From assembly GCF_039566955.1 (NCBI RefSeq), contig NZ_CP154796.1, positions 3,534,001-3,598,000 on the forward strand: 64,000 nt of DNA. Direction: 5' to 3'. Source of the stretch: Micromonospora sp. DSM 45708 (lineage in GTDB: Bacteria; Actinomycetota; Actinomycetes; Mycobacteriales; Micromonosporaceae). Positions 28,060 to 40,645 of the stretch are shown here, in pieces; position 1 is the first letter of the stretch, and each line of letters starts with the position of its first letter. The position numbers and the translations under genes were made by a program. The notes beneath the pieces are model-generated. The model saw only the letters and a program-made list of their open reading frames with translations, was not told where the DNA came from and searched no databases.

Positions 28060-29553
28060 CTATGTGTCCGCTGTGGATCCCGGCAGCCAGACGCGGAACG
28101 CGGTGTGGCCGGGGCGGCTGGTCACCTCGACCCGGCCGTGGTGGGCCTCCACCACGGCGGCGACGATGGCCAGCCCCAGGCCGGTGCTGCCGTGCGCGCG
28201 GGAGCGCGAGCCGTCGCCGCGGGCGAACCGTTCGAACACCTCCGGTTGCAGCTCGGCCGGGATGCCCGGCCCGTCGTCGGTGACCCGGAGTTCCACGCCG
28301 TCCGGGGCCGGTGACAGTCGGGTGGTCACGGTGGTGCCGGCCGGCGTGTGCACGCGCGCGTTGGCGAGCAGGTTCGTCAGCACCTGGTGCAGGCGGTGGC
28401 CGTCGCCGGTGACGGTGAGCGGCTCGTCCGGCAGGTCGAGCTGCCAGCGGTGTTCCGGGCCGGCCACGTGCGCGTCACTGACCGCGTCCACCGCCATGGC
28501 GGTCAGGTCGACCGGGTCGGCGGCCAGCGGTCGGCCGGAGTCCAACCGGGCGAGCAGCAGCAGGTCGTCCACGAGGCTGGTCATCCGGGTGCTCTCCGAC
28601 TCGACCCGGCGCAACGCGTGCGCCACGTCCGGTGGCACCTCCTGCCGGCCGCGCCGGGCCACTTCCGCGTACCCCCGGATGGCGGCCAGCGGCGTCCGCA
28701 GCTCGTGGCTGGCGTCGGCGACGAACTGGCGTACCCGCGTCTCGCTGGCCTGCCGGGCGGCGAGCGCGGCGGCGACGTGGCCGAGCATCCGGTTGAGCGC
28801 GCCCCCGACCTGCCCGACCTCGGTGCGCGGGTCGGTGTCGGCGGCCGGCACCCGGACCGACAGCGCCACCTCGCCCCGGTCCAGCGGCAGCTCGGTGACC
28901 CGGGCGGCGGTGGCGGCGACCCGGTTCAACGGCCGCAGCGTGCCCCGGACGATGAGCGCGCCGAGACCGCCGGCGATGACCAGCCCGGCACCGATCACCC
29001 CGGCCTGGGCCACCACCATCCACATGACCGTCTCGTCGACCTCGGCCAGCGGGATGGCGAAGACCAGGACGTCGCCGTCGGGCATCTGCCGGGCCACCGC
29101 CCGGTAGTCGCCGCGTCCGGCGAGCGCGACCGTGCGCGGCGCGGCATCGGGACGGAGCCGGGCCAGCGGCGCCACCTCGTCCGCCGGCACCGTGGTCGGC
29201 TGCGTGGCCGCCTGCCGGAACGCCAGGGCGACCTTCCCGTCGACGACCCGCGCCGCCACGGACTCGGCCGGGTAGCCGGGTGGGAACCCCGGGCGGAAGG
29301 TGTCCGGCCGGTCCTGCGGCAGCTCGAAGGGAGAGGGCTGCCGCACGTGGCGGCGGGATTCGCCACCGGTGAGCTGGTCGTCGATCCGCGTGATCAGGAA
29401 GTGCCGCAGCGCGACCGTGGTCAGGCCGCCGATGCCGACGCTGACCAGCGCCAGCAGCGCCACCACGGAGAGCACCAGGCGGCGGCGCAGCGACCAGCCG
29501 GCCAGCCGGCGGCGCAGCCGCCCGCCCCGGTCACTCCGCGGGCTTGAGGACAT
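28060..29553 (-). CDS. Sensor histidine kinase
   Basis: Membrane kinase of 497 residues: membrane segments at about 26-48 and 178-203 with an extracytoplasmic sensor between, HAMP at about 204-256, phospho-acceptor His283 in DASHELRTPLAAIRGY, and HATPase motifs NLLANARVHTP, DDGPGIP and GSTGLGLAIV. The start ATG at 29553 overlaps the end of the response regulator gene by 23 bases. With the regulator it should control the envelope-glycosylation genes that follow 45 bases downstream. Resembles mycobacterial TrcS/TcrY kinases. Confidence 0.9.
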   Translation of the reverse strand: MSSSPRSDRGGRLRRRLAGWSLRRRLVLSVVALLALVSVGIGGLTTVALRHFLITRIDDQLTGGESRRHVRQPSPFELPQDRPDTFRPGFPPGYPAESVAARVVDGKVALAFRQAATQPTTVPADEVAPLARLRPDAAPRTVALAGRGDYRAVARQMPDGDVLVFAIPLAEVDETVMWMVVAQAGVIGAGLVIAGGLGALIVRGTLRPLNRVAATAARVTELPLDRGEVALSVRVPAADTDPRTEVGQVGGALNRMLGHVAAALAARQASETRVRQFVADASHELRTPLAAIRGYAEVARRGRQEVPPDVAHALRRVESESTRMTSLVDDLLLLARLDSGRPLAADPVDLTAMAVDAVSDAHVAGPEHRWQLDLPDEPLTVTGDGHRLHQVLTNLLANARVHTPAGTTVTTRLSPAPDGVELRVTDDGPGIPAELQPEVFERFARGDGSRSRAHGSTGLGLAIVAAVVEAHHGRVEVTSRPGHTAFRVWLPGSTADT

Positions 29554-35903: not shown

Positions 35904-36350
35904 TCAGGCGTGCTTGGGGAGCACGACCACCCGACCGAAGAACTCGTCGATGCGGCGCACCACGTCGTTGAAGTCGTCCAGGTCGATCGGCTTGGTGACG
36001 TACGCGTTGGCCTGGAGCGTGTAGCTGCTCACCACGTCCGTGTCGGCGTTGGAGGTGGTGAGCACCACGATCGGGATGCTCCGGAGGTTCTCGTCCCGCT
36101 TGACCTCGCCGAGCACCTGCCGCCCGTCCATCCGGGGCATGTTGAGGTCGAGCAGGATGACGTCCGGTCGCTGCGCCCCGGTGTGCCGGCCCTCGCGACG
36201 GAGGAACTCCATCGCCTCCTCGCCGTCGGCGACCACGTCGATGACCTTCTCGACGTCCGACTCCTCGAGCGCCTCCTCGATCATCAGGACGTCACCCGGA
36301 TCGTCGTCCACCACCAGGATGCGGACCGGGCTCGAACTGGGCTGACCCAT
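35904..36350 (-). CDS. Single-domain CheY/Rcp-like response regulator
   Basis: 148 residues, one receiver domain of the Rcp1 type: VVDDDPGD, phospho-acceptor Asp in ILLDLNMPRMDG, the switch TS in VVLTTSNAD, and YVTKPIDLDDF (Lys). No output domain. Rcp-type regulators partner with phytochrome- or other sensor kinases; none is in the window. ATG at 36350. Located 70 bases after the STAS gene, on the same strand, so may share the island transcript. Confidence 0.85.
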   Translation of the reverse strand: MGQPSSSPVRILVVDDDPGDVLMIEEALEESDVEKVIDVVADGEEAMEFLRREGRHTGAQRPDVILLDLNMPRMDGRQVLGEVKRDENLRSIPIVVLTTSNADTDVVSSYTLQANAYVTKPIDLDDFNDVVRRIDEFFGRVVVLPKHA

Positions 36351-36420: not shown

Positions 36421-36768
36421 TCAGGAGCTGGCCGACGGCGTCGGGTCGACCGTGTCGCGGTCGTCGTGCAGCACCTCGGCCAGCCCGGTCACCTGGAGCA
36501 CCCGGGCGACCCGGCCGGCCGCCCCGGTGAGCCGCAGCCAGCCACCGTCGGCGGCGACGAGGTTGTCCCCGCGGACGAAGGCGGCGATGCCTGTCGAGTC
36601 GCAGAACGTCAGCTCGGTGAGGTCGAGCAGCAGCTCGCGCCGGCCCTCGGCGACCAGCCGGTCGATCTCGGCGGTCAGCTCCCCGGCCGTGCTGAGGTCC
36701 AGTTCGCCGGCGAGCCGGAGGCAGGTCACGCCCTGGTCCCGCTGGGCGGACGTGACGGCGAACGTCAC
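36421..36768 (-). CDS. STAS-domain anti-sigma-factor antagonist
   Basis: 115-residue STAS protein of the SpoIIAA/RsbV type, with the phosphorylatable Ser in FCDSTGIAAFV and the LAGELDLSTAGELTAEIDRL strand-helix. Unphosphorylated, it should bind an anti-sigma kinase and free a sigma factor. GTG at 36768 has AGAGGGG 7 bases upstream; earlier frame adds a low-complexity N-terminus with no family match. It follows the cobalamin-binding gene in the same direction; the gap of 76 bases contains CTTGC/GCAAG arms and a TATACT element (36816-36821, minus strand), so it may also have its own promoter. Confidence 0.85.
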   Translation of the reverse strand: MTFAVTSAQRDQGVTCLRLAGELDLSTAGELTAEIDRLVAEGRRELLLDLTELTFCDSTGIAAFVRGDNLVAADGGWLRLTGAAGRVARVLQVTGLAEVLHDDRDTVDPTPSASS

Positions 36769-36844
36769 CGTGGCCCCTCTCACTTCCACCGCAGGCAGAC
36801 GCTTGCAGTACAGCAAGTATAGGGGGAGTCCCGTCCGGCCCCGG

Positions 36845-37897
36845 TCAGCGGCCCGCCGCCACCGACGCCCGGCCGCCCACCACGGCCCGCCCCCGCTCCA
36901 GGAAGCCGGAGGCGCGGGGGAAGTCCCGTAGCTGCTGTCCATAGTGGTCGAGCGTGAGGCCGACCGCGCCCGCCGGCACGCCGCGACTGACCAAAATCTC
37001 CACCAACCACTCGACGAACTCGGCGAACAGCGTCCCGTCGTCGACGTAGAGCGCGGCGGCCAGAAAGTCGACGATGTAGCCCAGGTCGCCCACTGTCGAG
37101 TCGAGCTGCGCCGGCGTGTAGTCGACCACCGTCGGCACCCGCTCGCGCAGGTCGGCCAGCGCGCTGTCGATCAGCTCACCCCGCCGCTTGACCAGGCTGG
37201 CGTACTCGTCGTCGACGAGGTGGTCCAGCCGTGCGGGCGGCGTCGCGCGCAGCGCCCGGTCGTCGGCGACCAGGTCGGCCGCGGCCGGCGCGTCCGGCGC
37301 CCACGCCACACCGAGCACCCGCGCCCAGCGGCCGTCCGCGCCGAACCCACGCCCACCCACCACCACCGGCACGTCGGACCGGCGGCACGCCTCGATCATC
37401 CGGTGGGCGTGCGGCAGCCGCATCGGCAGCGCGCAGGCCAGGGCCACCGCGTCGGCGTCGTAACGGTGCAGGTAGGACACCAGGTGCGCGGACGGCACGC
37501 TGGCACCGAGAAAGACCACCTGCCAGCCGCGCAGCCGCAGCACCTCGGCGACCAGCCGGGCCGGCAGCGCGTGCCACTCACCGTCCATGCAGGCCATCAC
37601 GATCCGGCCGCGGGTCGGCCGGGGATCGGCGTACGCGGCGACCGCGGCCACCACCCGCTCGCTGATGTGGGTGGCGGCGTGCTCCTGGGCCACGCTCCAC
37701 TCGTTGCGTGCCCACCGCTCGCCCACCTCGGCCTGCGCCGGGGCGACCAGGTCGAGCAGGACCCGCTCGGCCGGCGCGCCCGCCTCCAGCAGCCCCCGGG
37801 CGACCGCCACCGCGCCCTGCTCGTCGGCCTCGGCCAGGCACTCCAGATAGCGGGCGAAGGCGTACGCCGGGCTTGCTGCGGTGGTCGTCGCGGTCAC
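36845..37897 (-). CDS. B12-binding sensor with CarH-type W-x9-EH motif
   Basis: Cytoplasmic protein of 350 residues. Residues ~15-90 form the four-helix cap of cobalamin proteins, with Trp62 and Glu72-His73 matching W-x9-E-H of CarH light sensors (RWARNEWSVAQEH). The Rossmann domain (~95-190) has the lower-ligand His109 in DGEWHALP and VVVGGRGFG. There is no MerR DNA-binding domain; instead ~150 C-terminal residues (about 215-350) form a helical region without a name I know. I infer an adenosylcobalamin light sensor that signals by protein contact. ATG at 37897 overlaps the phosphatase stop (ATGA). Which partner it binds is unknown. Confidence 0.75.
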   Translation of the reverse strand: MTATTTAASPAYAFARYLECLAEADEQGAVAVARGLLEAGAPAERVLLDLVAPAQAEVGERWARNEWSVAQEHAATHISERVVAAVAAYADPRPTRGRIVMACMDGEWHALPARLVAEVLRLRGWQVVFLGASVPSAHLVSYLHRYDADAVALACALPMRLPHAHRMIEACRRSDVPVVVGGRGFGADGRWARVLGVAWAPDAPAAADLVADDRALRATPPARLDHLVDDEYASLVKRRGELIDSALADLRERVPTVVDYTPAQLDSTVGDLGYIVDFLAAALYVDDGTLFAEFVEWLVEILVSRGVPAGAVGLTLDHYGQQLRDFPRASGFLERGRAVVGGRASVAAGR

Positions 37898-39663
37898 TCG
37901 GGCAGCTCCCTCGTCGGTTCGGCGCTCGTCGGGCCCGGCACCGCGTGCAGGTGACGGGTCGCGCGGCCGGCCGCACCGGTCGCCCGCAACGCCAGCACCG
38001 CGATGTCGTCGTGGTCACCGTGGGCGAGCCAGTCGCAGGTCACCTGCTCGACCCGCTCGGCCAGCGCCGGCGCGGGCATCCGGTGACAGCCGGTCACGGC
38101 GTTGAGCAGCCGGTCGGCGCCGAACTGCTCGTCGCCGCGCCACCCGCCCCGCGCCTCGGTCACGCCGTCGCTGTAGAGCAGGCACGTCTCGCCCGGCGCC
38201 AGGTGCACGGTGGCCTCGCCGATCCGCGGATCCGGCACCACGCCGATCAGCATGCCGCTCAACGGCACCACCTCGACCTCGCCGGAGGCGCGCAACACCA
38301 GCGGCGGCAGGTGACCGCCGCCGGCCATCGTCAGGGTCAGCCCGCCGTCGCGGTGCGGCCGGGCCACCCCGAGCACCATGGTGGCGAACCGGCCCTGCCC
38401 GTGGGCCTGGGTGGTCTCCAGCAACGCGTCGTTGAGCAGCTTCAGCAGCCGCGCCGGCTGCGGCTGCACCCGGTGCAACGCGTGCAGGCACTGGCGGAGC
38501 TGGCCGGTGAAGACCGCCGCTTCCACGCCCTTGCCCGACACGTCGCCGAGGAAGAAGACCGAGCCGCCGTCGGCCAGCCGGTGCGAGCCGTAGAAGTCGC
38601 CGCCGATGCGCAGACCGGCCTGCGCCGGCCGGTACGCCGTACCCCACTGCACGCCCGAGGCCGCCGCCGGCTCGACCGGCACCAGGCTGGCCTGCAACGT
38701 GTCGGCCACCTCGGCCTGGTCGCGGTAGAGCATGGCGGTGGTCAGCGCCGCGCCGGCCCGGGCCGCGAACGCGCGCACCAGGTCGACGTCGGCCTCGTCG
38801 TACCAGCGACCGGCCCGGCGGGCCACCAGCAGCACACCGACCGGGGCGTCCCGGCCCGGCAGCGGCACCACCCGGGCGGTGGCGCCGGTCACGTCCAGGC
38901 CGGGCAGCCAGCCCGCCTCGGCGGCCTGCTCGACGAGCCAGTCCAGCGCGTGCGGTTCGGTCCCGGCGAGGCCGGCCTCGATGGCCGCGGGCAGCGCGCT
39001 GGCGGGCAGCACGCCGCCGTCCACGGTGGGCGCGTCGTCCTCGGCGCGCACCGCCCGCCACCAGCGGGCCCGGCCGGAACGCGGGGCCAGCACCAGCACC
39101 CCCACGTCGGCCACCGTGGGCACCGCCAGCCGCGCCACCGCGGCGGCGGCCCGGTCGGGATGCAGCGGATTGCCGAGCTTCTCGCCGACCACGGCGAGGA
39201 ACAACGAACGGGCCCGCTCGGCGAGCAACGCGTCCGCCCGGCTGACGCTCTCGGTGACGTCCTCGACGTACCAGCAGCGCCGGGCGTGGGAGAGTGCGAC
39301 CGGGCGCAGCCGCAACCGCCGGCCGTGGTGGGTGAACTCGGTCCGACCGTCGCCGCCCAGCGCCGCCACGCCGGTGGCGGCGAGCACCTCGCCCGGCACG
39401 ACCTCGGGGACCAGCCGCTCCGCGACCGGGCTCACGTGCCGCACCACGCCGTCGGCGTCGCAGACGATGAGACCCTCGCGGAAGTGCTCCACGACCTCGG
39501 ACCAGTCGGGGACGGGGACGATCGAGGCGTCGTGGTCGGGGGCCAGCAGTGGGAGGACAGACGCCGTGGGAGCGCCGGCGGACCACACCCGAGCCCGGTC
39601 GGCACTCGGCGTGGAGATCCGTCCGTCGCCCGGGTCGGAACCCCTGACGTCGGCAGCAGTCAC
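37894..39663 (-). CDS. PAS-GAF-SpoIIE (RsbU-type) phosphatase
   Basis: PP2C-type Ser phosphatase of 589 residues. Order: PAS-like sensor (~53-140, VVEHFREGLIVCDADGVVRH), GAF-like domain (~160-305), and SpoIIE domain (~340-555) with metal sites IGGDFYG, FFLGDVSGKGVEAA, YSDGVTEARGG and GDHDDIAVLAL. It should dephosphorylate STAS proteins such as those at 36421, 39871 and 40298, releasing a sigma factor. The stop overlaps the B12 gene start, so both are translated together. GTG at 39663 is preferred; a GTG at 39735 adds 24 unconserved residues. Its position suggests it is the effector of the light or signal input. Confidence 0.85.
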   Translation of the reverse strand: MTAADVRGSDPGDGRISTPSADRARVWSAGAPTASVLPLLAPDHDASIVPVPDWSEVVEHFREGLIVCDADGVVRHVSPVAERLVPEVVPGEVLAATGVAALGGDGRTEFTHHGRRLRLRPVALSHARRCWYVEDVTESVSRADALLAERARSLFLAVVGEKLGNPLHPDRAAAAVARLAVPTVADVGVLVLAPRSGRARWWRAVRAEDDAPTVDGGVLPASALPAAIEAGLAGTEPHALDWLVEQAAEAGWLPGLDVTGATARVVPLPGRDAPVGVLLVARRAGRWYDEADVDLVRAFAARAGAALTTAMLYRDQAEVADTLQASLVPVEPAAASGVQWGTAYRPAQAGLRIGGDFYGSHRLADGGSVFFLGDVSGKGVEAAVFTGQLRQCLHALHRVQPQPARLLKLLNDALLETTQAHGQGRFATMVLGVARPHRDGGLTLTMAGGGHLPPLVLRASGEVEVVPLSGMLIGVVPDPRIGEATVHLAPGETCLLYSDGVTEARGGWRGDEQFGADRLLNAVTGCHRMPAPALAERVEQVTCDWLAHGDHDDIAVLALRATGAAGRATRHLHAVPGPTSAEPTRELPE

Positions 39664-39870
39664 CAGCTGAGCCCCACTCTCCTCGTCGACATCGGCGGAG
39701 CGCCGGAAGTGGCGCCTGTGGTCACATCTCGTCACCCCACCCTACGCGGGTATGCCCGGAGCGCCACCGGACGGCGGCGCGGCGCCGCGAACACACGCCG
39801 AGCGCCCCGGCCCCGGGGTTGTTACGATCCGGACGTCCCTGCCAGACCGGCAGCCTGCGGAAAGGGCGTG

Positions 39871-40254
39871 ATGGTGGTTCCTCGACGGAGAAAGCCCGAA
39901 GCGACGCCGCTGAGCATCTCCGTGGACCATTCCGACCCGGGCGTTCCGGTCGTCCGCGTCGGCGGCGACCTGGCCTACGCCACCGCGGCACCGCTGCGCG
40001 CCGAGGTCGACCGCCTGCTCGTCGCGCGTCCCACCCGGCTGGTGCTGGATTTCGGCGACCTGGTCTTCCTGGACAGCACCGGCCTGTCGGTGATCGTGCA
40101 CGCCTGGCGCGAGGGGCAGCAGGCCGGCACCGTGATCCAGCTCCGGGCGGTCCCCCGCTTCCTGGCGACCATCCTCGACCTGACCGGGGTGACCGGTCTG
40201 CTGGACCGCCCGCCTGTCCACCGGTCCGCGGCCGACTCCACCGCGTCCGCCTGA
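39871..40254 (+). CDS. STAS-domain anti-sigma-factor antagonist
   Basis: 127-residue STAS protein with phospho-Ser in FLDSTGLSVIVHA and the LVLDFGDLVFLD strand. The N-terminus is basic (RRRKPEA). ATG at 39871 with GGAAAGGG 4 bases upstream. Divergent from the phosphatase gene and followed 43 bases later by a second STAS gene. Probable target of the SpoIIE phosphatase. Confidence 0.85.
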   Translation: MVVPRRRKPEATPLSISVDHSDPGVPVVRVGGDLAYATAAPLRAEVDRLLVARPTRLVLDFGDLVFLDSTGLSVIVHAWREGQQAGTVIQLRAVPRFLATILDLTGVTGLLDRPPVHRSAADSTASA

Positions 40255-40297: not shown

Positions 40298-40645
40298 GTG
40301 CCCTCCCCGCTGTTGACCATCGAGGTGGACCGGCGCGACGCCGGCTCCGCCCGGCTCCGGCTGGCCGGCGAGCTGGACTTCGACACCGCGCCGGAACTCG
40401 TCGAGGCCGCCGCCGGGCTGCGCCGCGACGGTCTTCAGGAGCTGTGGCTCGACTTCACCGACGTGACGCTCTGCGACTCCTCCGGGCTGAGCGCACTGGT
40501 GCTGATCCACCGCGCCGGCACCGGCGCGGTCCACCTGCTCGGCCTGAACGCGCAGATCCGACAGCTACTGGACCGCACCGGCCTGGCCGAGCTGCTCACC
40601 GCCCCGCCCCGCACGGCGACCGGCGACGCCCGCGAGGTGGGCTGA
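40298..40645 (+). CDS. STAS-domain anti-sigma-factor antagonist
   Basis: 115-residue STAS protein with phospho-Ser in LCDSSGLSALVL and the LAGELDFDTAPELVEAA block. GTG at 40298; no clear ribosome site, which suits a leaderless transcript. A strong hairpin follows. Third STAS protein of this island; the anti-sigma kinase and the sigma factor themselves are not in the window. Confidence 0.85.
   Translation: MPSPLLTIEVDRRDAGSARLRLAGELDFDTAPELVEAAAGLRRDGLQELWLDFTDVTLCDSSGLSALVLIHRAGTGAVHLLGLNAQIRQLLDRTGLAELLTAPPRTATGDAREVG

Follow-up and report, generated by a model that had tools for sequence, protein, structure and literature searches.

A probable photocobilin as a candidate light-sensing partner of a SpoIIE-type phosphatase in Micromonospora

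Introduction

SasPcob is a stand-alone photocobilin of Saccharothrix syringae (PDB 8J2W/8J2X) which, according to the excerpted text of PMC10979010, binds adenosylcobalamin (AdoCbl) and biliverdin (BV), monomerises in light and controls a foreign cyclase in trans; without BV the effect of light on the cyclase is reversed. In the same excerpts Zhang et al. (2024) call the role of stand-alone photocobilins "less clear" and predict that SasPcob interacts with STAS, SpoIIE and PP2C proteins (PMC10979010). Here we analyse a stretch of 64,000 nucleotides from Micromonospora sp. DSM 45708 (contig NZ_CP154796.1, positions 3,534,001 to 3,598,000; hereafter the window), in which the gene for a probable photocobilin (Pcob) lies between the genes for a SpoIIE-type phosphatase and a STAS antagonist.

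Flavin inputs to partner switches are known, YtvA and LOV among them, and the phosphatase partner RsbT has a GHKL fold. RsbT activates RsbU by ordering the RsbU linker, and it has been argued, partly from AlphaFold models, that phosphatases bearing PAS and GAF domains work alike (excerpted text of PMC12143880). Among the full texts searched, a set outside which most subscription papers fall, photocobilins were tied to SpoIIE only in PMC10979010, as a network prediction for Saccharothrix; SpoIIE and STAS are unmentioned in PMC11796333. The initial annotation of the window had taken the arrangement at this locus to be undescribed. The prediction made for SasPcob anticipates it, and both the photocobilin family and its predicted SpoIIE link are already known, published in 2024. 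We add linkage counts, co-loss, an exchange of SpoIIE for GGDEF proteins and a clade lacking the bilin Asp, and make no claim that these are absent from published supplements.

Results

The 350-residue protein encoded at 36845 was compared with the chains of solved structures using phmmer. We found that its residues 18-340 aligned with chain residues 11-333 or 12-334 of the SasPcob structures 8j2w and 8j2x (E=4.2e-101), with 180 of 322 aligned residues identical. The AbPcob structure 8j2y matched at E=2.2e-47 and the cobalamin protein 8jbs at E=8.7e-16, and chains named CarH reached E=4e-12 to 1e-11 at best. Pfam placed a four-helix bundle (B12-binding_2) at residues 15-85 and a Rossmann domain (B12-binding) at 97-199, and since these B12 domains alone scored above cut-off the earlier statement that the protein has no MerR domain stands. 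Residues ~222-340, overlooked in the first reading, are a globin/bilin domain. The reading frame, W62-x9-E72-H73 and His109 were all present as first described, and the cobalamin motifs W-x9/10-EH and E/D-x-H are made up of W62, E72, H73, E107 and H109. When the bilin contacts of SasPcob, Asp270 and Trp296, were mapped by hand on the phmmer alignment, W61 and H108 fixing a numbering offset of 6, they fell on D271 and W297; the His of AbPcob named in PMC10979010 shares the column of D271. Cys is absent from residues 222-340, thus there is no Cys for a covalent bilin. The closest protein from a named genome, also of Micromonospora (L031), is 96% identical. By homology the 36845 protein is a photocobilin, probably a B12-plus-bilin light sensor of a soil bacterium. 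We rejected the CarH-like identity given to it at first because it scored only 62.6 bits against an NCBIfam CarH equivalog cut-off of 400 and because the photocobilin match is full-length, taking in the C-terminal globin domain and bilin pocket.

The position of SpoIIE relative to Pcob was scored in two samples. From a family sample of 200 genomes all matches stronger than ~1e-19 were fetched (118 loci), and in a class sample of 394 genomes 61 matched at E<=1e-35 (65 loci, four of them common to the family sample). A locus was counted as linked if a SpoIIE domain lay on the same strand at most 1.5 kb 5' of Pcob; distant SpoIIE domains could be missed, because the profile was seeded from the 37894 locus. 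The neighbourhood of a cobalamin domain and SpoIIE, first noticed in the window, proved to be regular. SpoIIE lay directly 5' of Pcob at 115 of 118 family loci, with a median inter-domain gap of 123 bp, the other three being one cut by a contig end and two unlinked (L101 and L207). It held the same position at 56 of 65 class loci, and one further class locus was cut by a contig end. The chance expectation is ~0.3% per locus, given 20 SpoIIE matches in a 7.0 Mb genome. In a separate set of 78 loci, kept out of these totals because it partly repeats the same species, SpoIIE was found at all 78. A phylum sample gave Pcob matches at E<=1e-20 in 25 of 296 genomes, in 11 of which the match was limited to the B12 part, and outside the class there were eight fuller matches in six genomes.

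Loss of the two genes was also correlated. Among the 38 Micromonospora genomes of the family sample, Pcob is intact in 31, each of which has SpoIIE 5' of it, and six lack Pcob; SpoIIE (E<=1e-60) is absent from five of these six and present in G131. Fisher's test gave p=1.4e-5 (31/0 vs 1/5), not corrected for ancestry and with several of the genomes being drafts. Six longer proteins matched Pcob, and four were inspected as fusions (P0122, P0124, P0126 and P0127). P0122, a single member sequence, reads in-frame as a continuous PAS-GAF-SpoIIE-photocobilin protein of 908 aa and may be either a true fusion or a sequencing error. According to its listed domains, P0125 carries GGDEF.

Of the ten unlinked loci, eight (all but L182 and L193) were covered by a scan of ten neighbour proteins. 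At four of the ten loci (L185, L192, L195 and L207) a GGDEF or GGDEF-EAL gene abuts Pcob 5'. Both outputs, SpoIIE and cyclase, therefore occur with the photocobilin module, AbDPcob (PDB 8J2Y) being a natural cyclase fusion. At L101:4203-6014 the abutting 5' gene encodes CbiZ (adenosylcobinamide amidohydrolase, cobamide salvage), which hints at B12 salvage or sensing. A KaiC gene lies 3' of Pcob at L184, and the scan took in an amidase on the other strand at L189 and a glycosyltransferase at L190, neither of them a direct 5' partner. By eye, the GGDEF proteins of L185, L195 and L207 have a similar stretch ahead of GGDEF. A docking domain shared by SpoIIE and other partners, GGDEF proteins included, was considered and rejected, the SpoIIE N-terminal profile having no credible match among six neighbour proteins (best E 0.023).

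Residue conservation was counted over 113 complete family rows, after five loci with broken Pcob frames were dropped, and over 64 class rows, a set that leaves out three loci with fragmentary frames and includes two added tandem copies. W62, E72, H73, H109 and W297 are invariant in the family rows. In the class rows E72 and H73 are each kept in 64 of 64, and W62, H109 and W297 each in 63. Position 107 is E in 112 family rows and D in one, and E in 62 class rows and D in two. For D271 the counts are 99 of 113 (family) and 50 of 64 (class). Judged from these alignments, the W62/E72/H73/H109 motif exceeds chance. In a Micromonospora paralogue clade (L120-L128) S, V, A or G stands in place of the bilin Asp, and the operons run SpoIIE-Pcob-SpoIIE, the second, downstream SpoIIE having been checked with Pfam for L123. 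These paralogues are possibly B12-only sensors. The photocobilin tree, built quickly and containing several long branches, was used solely for this strongly supported clade. At L177:3995-5098, R stands at the Trp62, His109 and Trp297 positions and SpoIIE is still 5'; this photocobilin is perhaps a cofactor-free partner or a decaying gene. At L149:4007-5720 and L150:4007-5720, two tandem photocobilin genes lie behind a single SpoIIE gene.

The phosphatase had been labelled PAS-GAF-SpoIIE. Pfam supports the last domain (PF07228, 147 bits), but the best GAF match, 25.4 bits, lies under the cut-off of 27 and PAS is unmatched. D380, D398, D523, D576 and D577 are invariant among 37 SpoIIE sequences, and Asp 380, 398, 523 and 576/577 we take to be metal-binding residues. 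An AlphaFold2 model built on a 37-row alignment (mean predicted local distance difference test, pLDDT, 83; predicted template modelling score, pTM, 0.65) is ordered over ~75-592. It has two ordered N-terminal alpha/beta regions, ~78-159 and 193-306, which a 37-residue helix, 314-350, connects to the phosphatase domain. Foldseek ranked the phosphatase domains of RssB, SiaA and Rv1364c first and matched phytochrome structures weakly (TM 0.22). The model, together with the weak Pfam GAF scores, fits a predicted PAS-GAF-linker-PPM protein, in which helix 314-350 would be the obvious counterpart of the RsbU linker.

Features of the locus are collected in Table 1. The stop-start overlap of the SpoIIE and Pcob genes was borne out at 4 bp, but with GTG and GTGA in place of the ATG and ATGA first given, and makes translational coupling of the two likely. 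The STAS antagonist gene annotated 3' of Pcob was borne out as well, with 63.5 bits against Pfam STAS and 68.3 bits against TIGR00377 (over its cut-off of 53.45), and its product has a CDSTGI motif, presumably the phospho-acceptor. In the 78-locus set STAS lies downstream of Pcob at 71 loci and the response regulator downstream at 75, making the regulator a conserved neighbour in Micromonospora; a same-strand downstream regulator was found at one of 51 non-Micromonospora loci (L080). At five Micromonospora loci (L029, L059, L064, L066 and L075) no STAS was found between Pcob and the regulator, and SpoIIE and Pcob are kept. The element in the gap between Pcob and STAS reads TATACTTGCTGTACTGCAAG on the minus strand, its palindrome being CTTGCTGTACTGCAAG, of which TATACTTGC is at least 95% conserved across 43 aligned sequences, the window's own included. 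Conserved upstream blocks read as promoters gave no confident sigma class.

The genome has 49 HATPase_c_2 matches, 32 of them over cut-off and some surely histidine kinases. The single match within the window (~28123-28380, in a 505-aa frame) is probably also a histidine kinase, because an OmpR-type regulator lies ~1.2 kb away. Four SigBFG-type sigma genes score over cut-off in the genome, the nearest ~53 kb from the operon. As to chromophores, an adenosyltransferase gene (PF02572) is present and a heme-oxygenase-like gene is borderline, with 23 bits (at cut-off), no NCBIfam match and a best PDB match of E=0.011. The genome has no phytochrome PHY domain. Pfam picked up heme oxygenase in 19 of 22 genomes from other Pcob-bearing genera, a set with no Pcob-free control group.

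Table 1. Coordinates, in window positions, of the photocobilin operon and its neighbours
Feature	Coordinates	Strand	Size	Details
SpoIIE phosphatase gene	37894..39735	-	613 aa	589 aa with alternative in-frame GTG start at 39663, the boundary of the initial annotation
Photocobilin (Pcob) gene	36845..37897	-	350 aa	GTG start
GTGA overlap, SpoIIE stop and Pcob start	37894..37897	-	4 bp	read from sequence
STAS anti-sigma factor antagonist gene	36421..36768	-		start GTG 36768 or 36783; 3' of Pcob
TATA box, then palindrome CTTGC-TGTACT-GCAAG, in Pcob-STAS gap	36802..36821	.
Stand-alone response regulator receiver gene	35904..36350	-		Pfam 80.5 bits; downstream neighbour
STAS gene divergent from SpoIIE	39871..40254	+		Pfam STAS 50.1 bits
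Second divergent STAS gene	40298..40645	+		Pfam STAS 46.5 bits

Discussion

We consider it likely that Pcob is a trans-acting, light-sensing partner subunit of the PAS-GAF-SpoIIE phosphatase, which in turn acts on STAS antagonists. This reading rests on homology, cofactor residues, operon, linkage and co-loss. It is also favoured by the published photochemistry, monomerisation and in-trans cyclase control of SasPcob, by the P0122 protein, by the complete set of catalytic Asp residues and the linker helix of the phosphatase, for which RsbT-RsbU is a precedent, and by the sigma, SpoIIE, HATPase_c_2 and adenosyltransferase genes counted in the genome. The B12 light sensor wired to a SpoIIE/STAS switch that the initial annotation proposed is thus supported by photoreceptor homology, class-wide linkage and co-loss, but not in its CarH-like form. 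In the dark, AdoCbl-loaded Pcob would be a head-to-tail dimer. Light would break the Co-C bond, green light directly and red light via biliverdin if bound, upon which the adenosyl group would depart and the dimer would open to monomers. We infer that monomerisation would alter how Pcob meets the phosphatase at its N-terminal/linker region, and the long helix there would set phosphatase activity. The predicted substrates are STAS antagonists, namely the 36421 protein and probably both divergent STAS proteins too, and once dephosphorylated these would bind a switch kinase, anti-sigma or other, whose gene lies elsewhere. Release of a sigma factor by the switch is plausible. The sign of the response is unpredictable, because BV-free SasPcob showed a reversed effect of light on the cyclase.

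A number of observations weigh against this reading. Genomic linkage is no proof of contact between Pcob and SpoIIE. Eight of the 65 class loci are unlinked to SpoIIE, one of them (L193) a Pcob fragment, and SpoIIE lies beside none of the four photocobilin loci fetched outside the class (L136-L139), so the pairing is shown for the class only. The link of STAS to Pcob is weaker than that of SpoIIE: STAS is not directly downstream at seven of the 78 loci, one of these cut by a contig end, and in the family sample it lies downstream at just 38 of 118 loci and divergent upstream at 21, in the class sample downstream at 32 of 65 and divergent upstream at 4, counts which outside Micromonospora are lower bounds because the STAS profile was seeded from this locus. 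The HATPase_c_2 scan gave no RsbW-like switch kinase linked to the operon, and there is no SigB/F/G-type sigma gene within the window. Heme oxygenase homologues of either type were found in only 13 of the 31 Pcob-intact Micromonospora genomes (one of the 13, G134, on a partial match) and in none of the seven others (one-sided Fisher 0.038, uncorrected for ancestry), so the supply of biliverdin is in doubt. G131, which lacks Pcob, keeps SpoIIE followed directly by STAS and the regulator, and in G150, where Pcob is broken, SpoIIE is retained with one internal stop; the phosphatase may therefore work without Pcob. P0124, P0126 and P0127 look frame-shifted by eye and were rejected as fusions. Lastly, AbDPcob remains dimeric under light by small-angle X-ray scattering (excerpted text of PMC10979010).

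Uncertain biliverdin supply bears on an alternative that we regard as unlikely, in which Pcob senses cobalamin or its redox/adenosylation state, AdoCbl occupancy tunes the phosphatase and cleavage by light is incidental. Eighteen of the 31 Pcob-intact Micromonospora genomes yielded no heme oxygenase homologue, Pcob abuts the CbiZ gene at L101, and the cyclase activity of AbDPcob is not the same in its apo form as with AdoCbl (excerpted text of PMC10979010). However, Trp62, Glu72-His73 and Trp297 are near-invariant, the bilin Asp is kept at the frequencies given above in both samples, and the closest solved homologues are photoactive.

The retention of the phosphatase in G131 could also mean that the two proteins share an operon and act separately, with Pcob driving a cyclase or the response regulator and SpoIIE sensing its own PAS/GAF signals. 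The action of SasPcob on a foreign cyclase in vitro (excerpted text of PMC10979010) and the regular presence of the regulator in Micromonospora would suit such an arrangement, which we nevertheless judge improbable, since SpoIIE regularly occupies the 5' position across the class, a same-strand downstream regulator was found at a single one of the 51 loci outside Micromonospora, and one SpoIIE-Pcob fusion (P0122) was found. A third alternative, a degenerate methyl carrier of the corrinoid kind (MtbC1-like) or a CarH-like repressor that lacks a DNA-binding domain, would suit the B12-binding_2/B12-binding Pfam architecture, the weak corrinoid protein matches and the naming of such proteins in databases (methanogenic corrinoid protein MtbC1, for example), but can hardly be correct given the low CarH score, corrinoid models far under their own cut-offs and a photocobilin match that includes the globin domain.

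A broader reading may be offered tentatively, with somewhat less than an even chance of being right. Stand-alone photocobilins would be plug-in light-sensing subunits, RsbT/RsbQ-like, for dimeric enzymes with helical linkers. The 5' slot would normally hold a PAS-GAF-SpoIIE phosphatase and in other lineages a diguanylate cyclase, and biliverdin supply or clade-wide loss of the bilin Asp would set the spectral range and possibly the response sign. Linkage and co-loss make the SpoIIE-type phosphatase the leading output candidate across the sampled class, and its regular pairing points to where the job of stand-alone photocobilins should be sought. The exchange for GGDEF proteins provides a natural comparison for photocobilin output. 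If the proposal is true, vitamin B12 photochemistry feeds a serine phosphatase partner switch, and a cobalamin/bilin input takes its place beside the flavin ones. The genera concerned are known for antibiotics and sporulation.

Among described systems, SasPcob shares with the window protein the match over residues 18-340, the W/EH/H cofactor set and the Asp and Trp of the bilin pocket; it comes from a different species, and for the window protein cofactors, light response and partners are predictions. AbDPcob has the same photosensory module, and light controls its attached enzyme, but it is fused to a diguanylate cyclase, has His in place of the bilin Asp and is more distant (E=2e-47). CarH likewise has an AdoCbl domain with W-x9-EH and a His lower ligand, whereas the window protein is without a MerR DNA-binding domain and has an extra globin domain. 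Unlike an RsbU-type switch, the operon has no RsbW or sigma gene linked to it in the window. As in RsbT-RsbU and RsbQ-RsbP (excerpted text of PMC12143880), a stand-alone partner is expected to engage the sensor/linker region of a PPM phosphatase whose target is a STAS antagonist; here, however, that partner would be a B12/bilin photoreceptor, whereas RsbQ is an alpha/beta-hydrolase.

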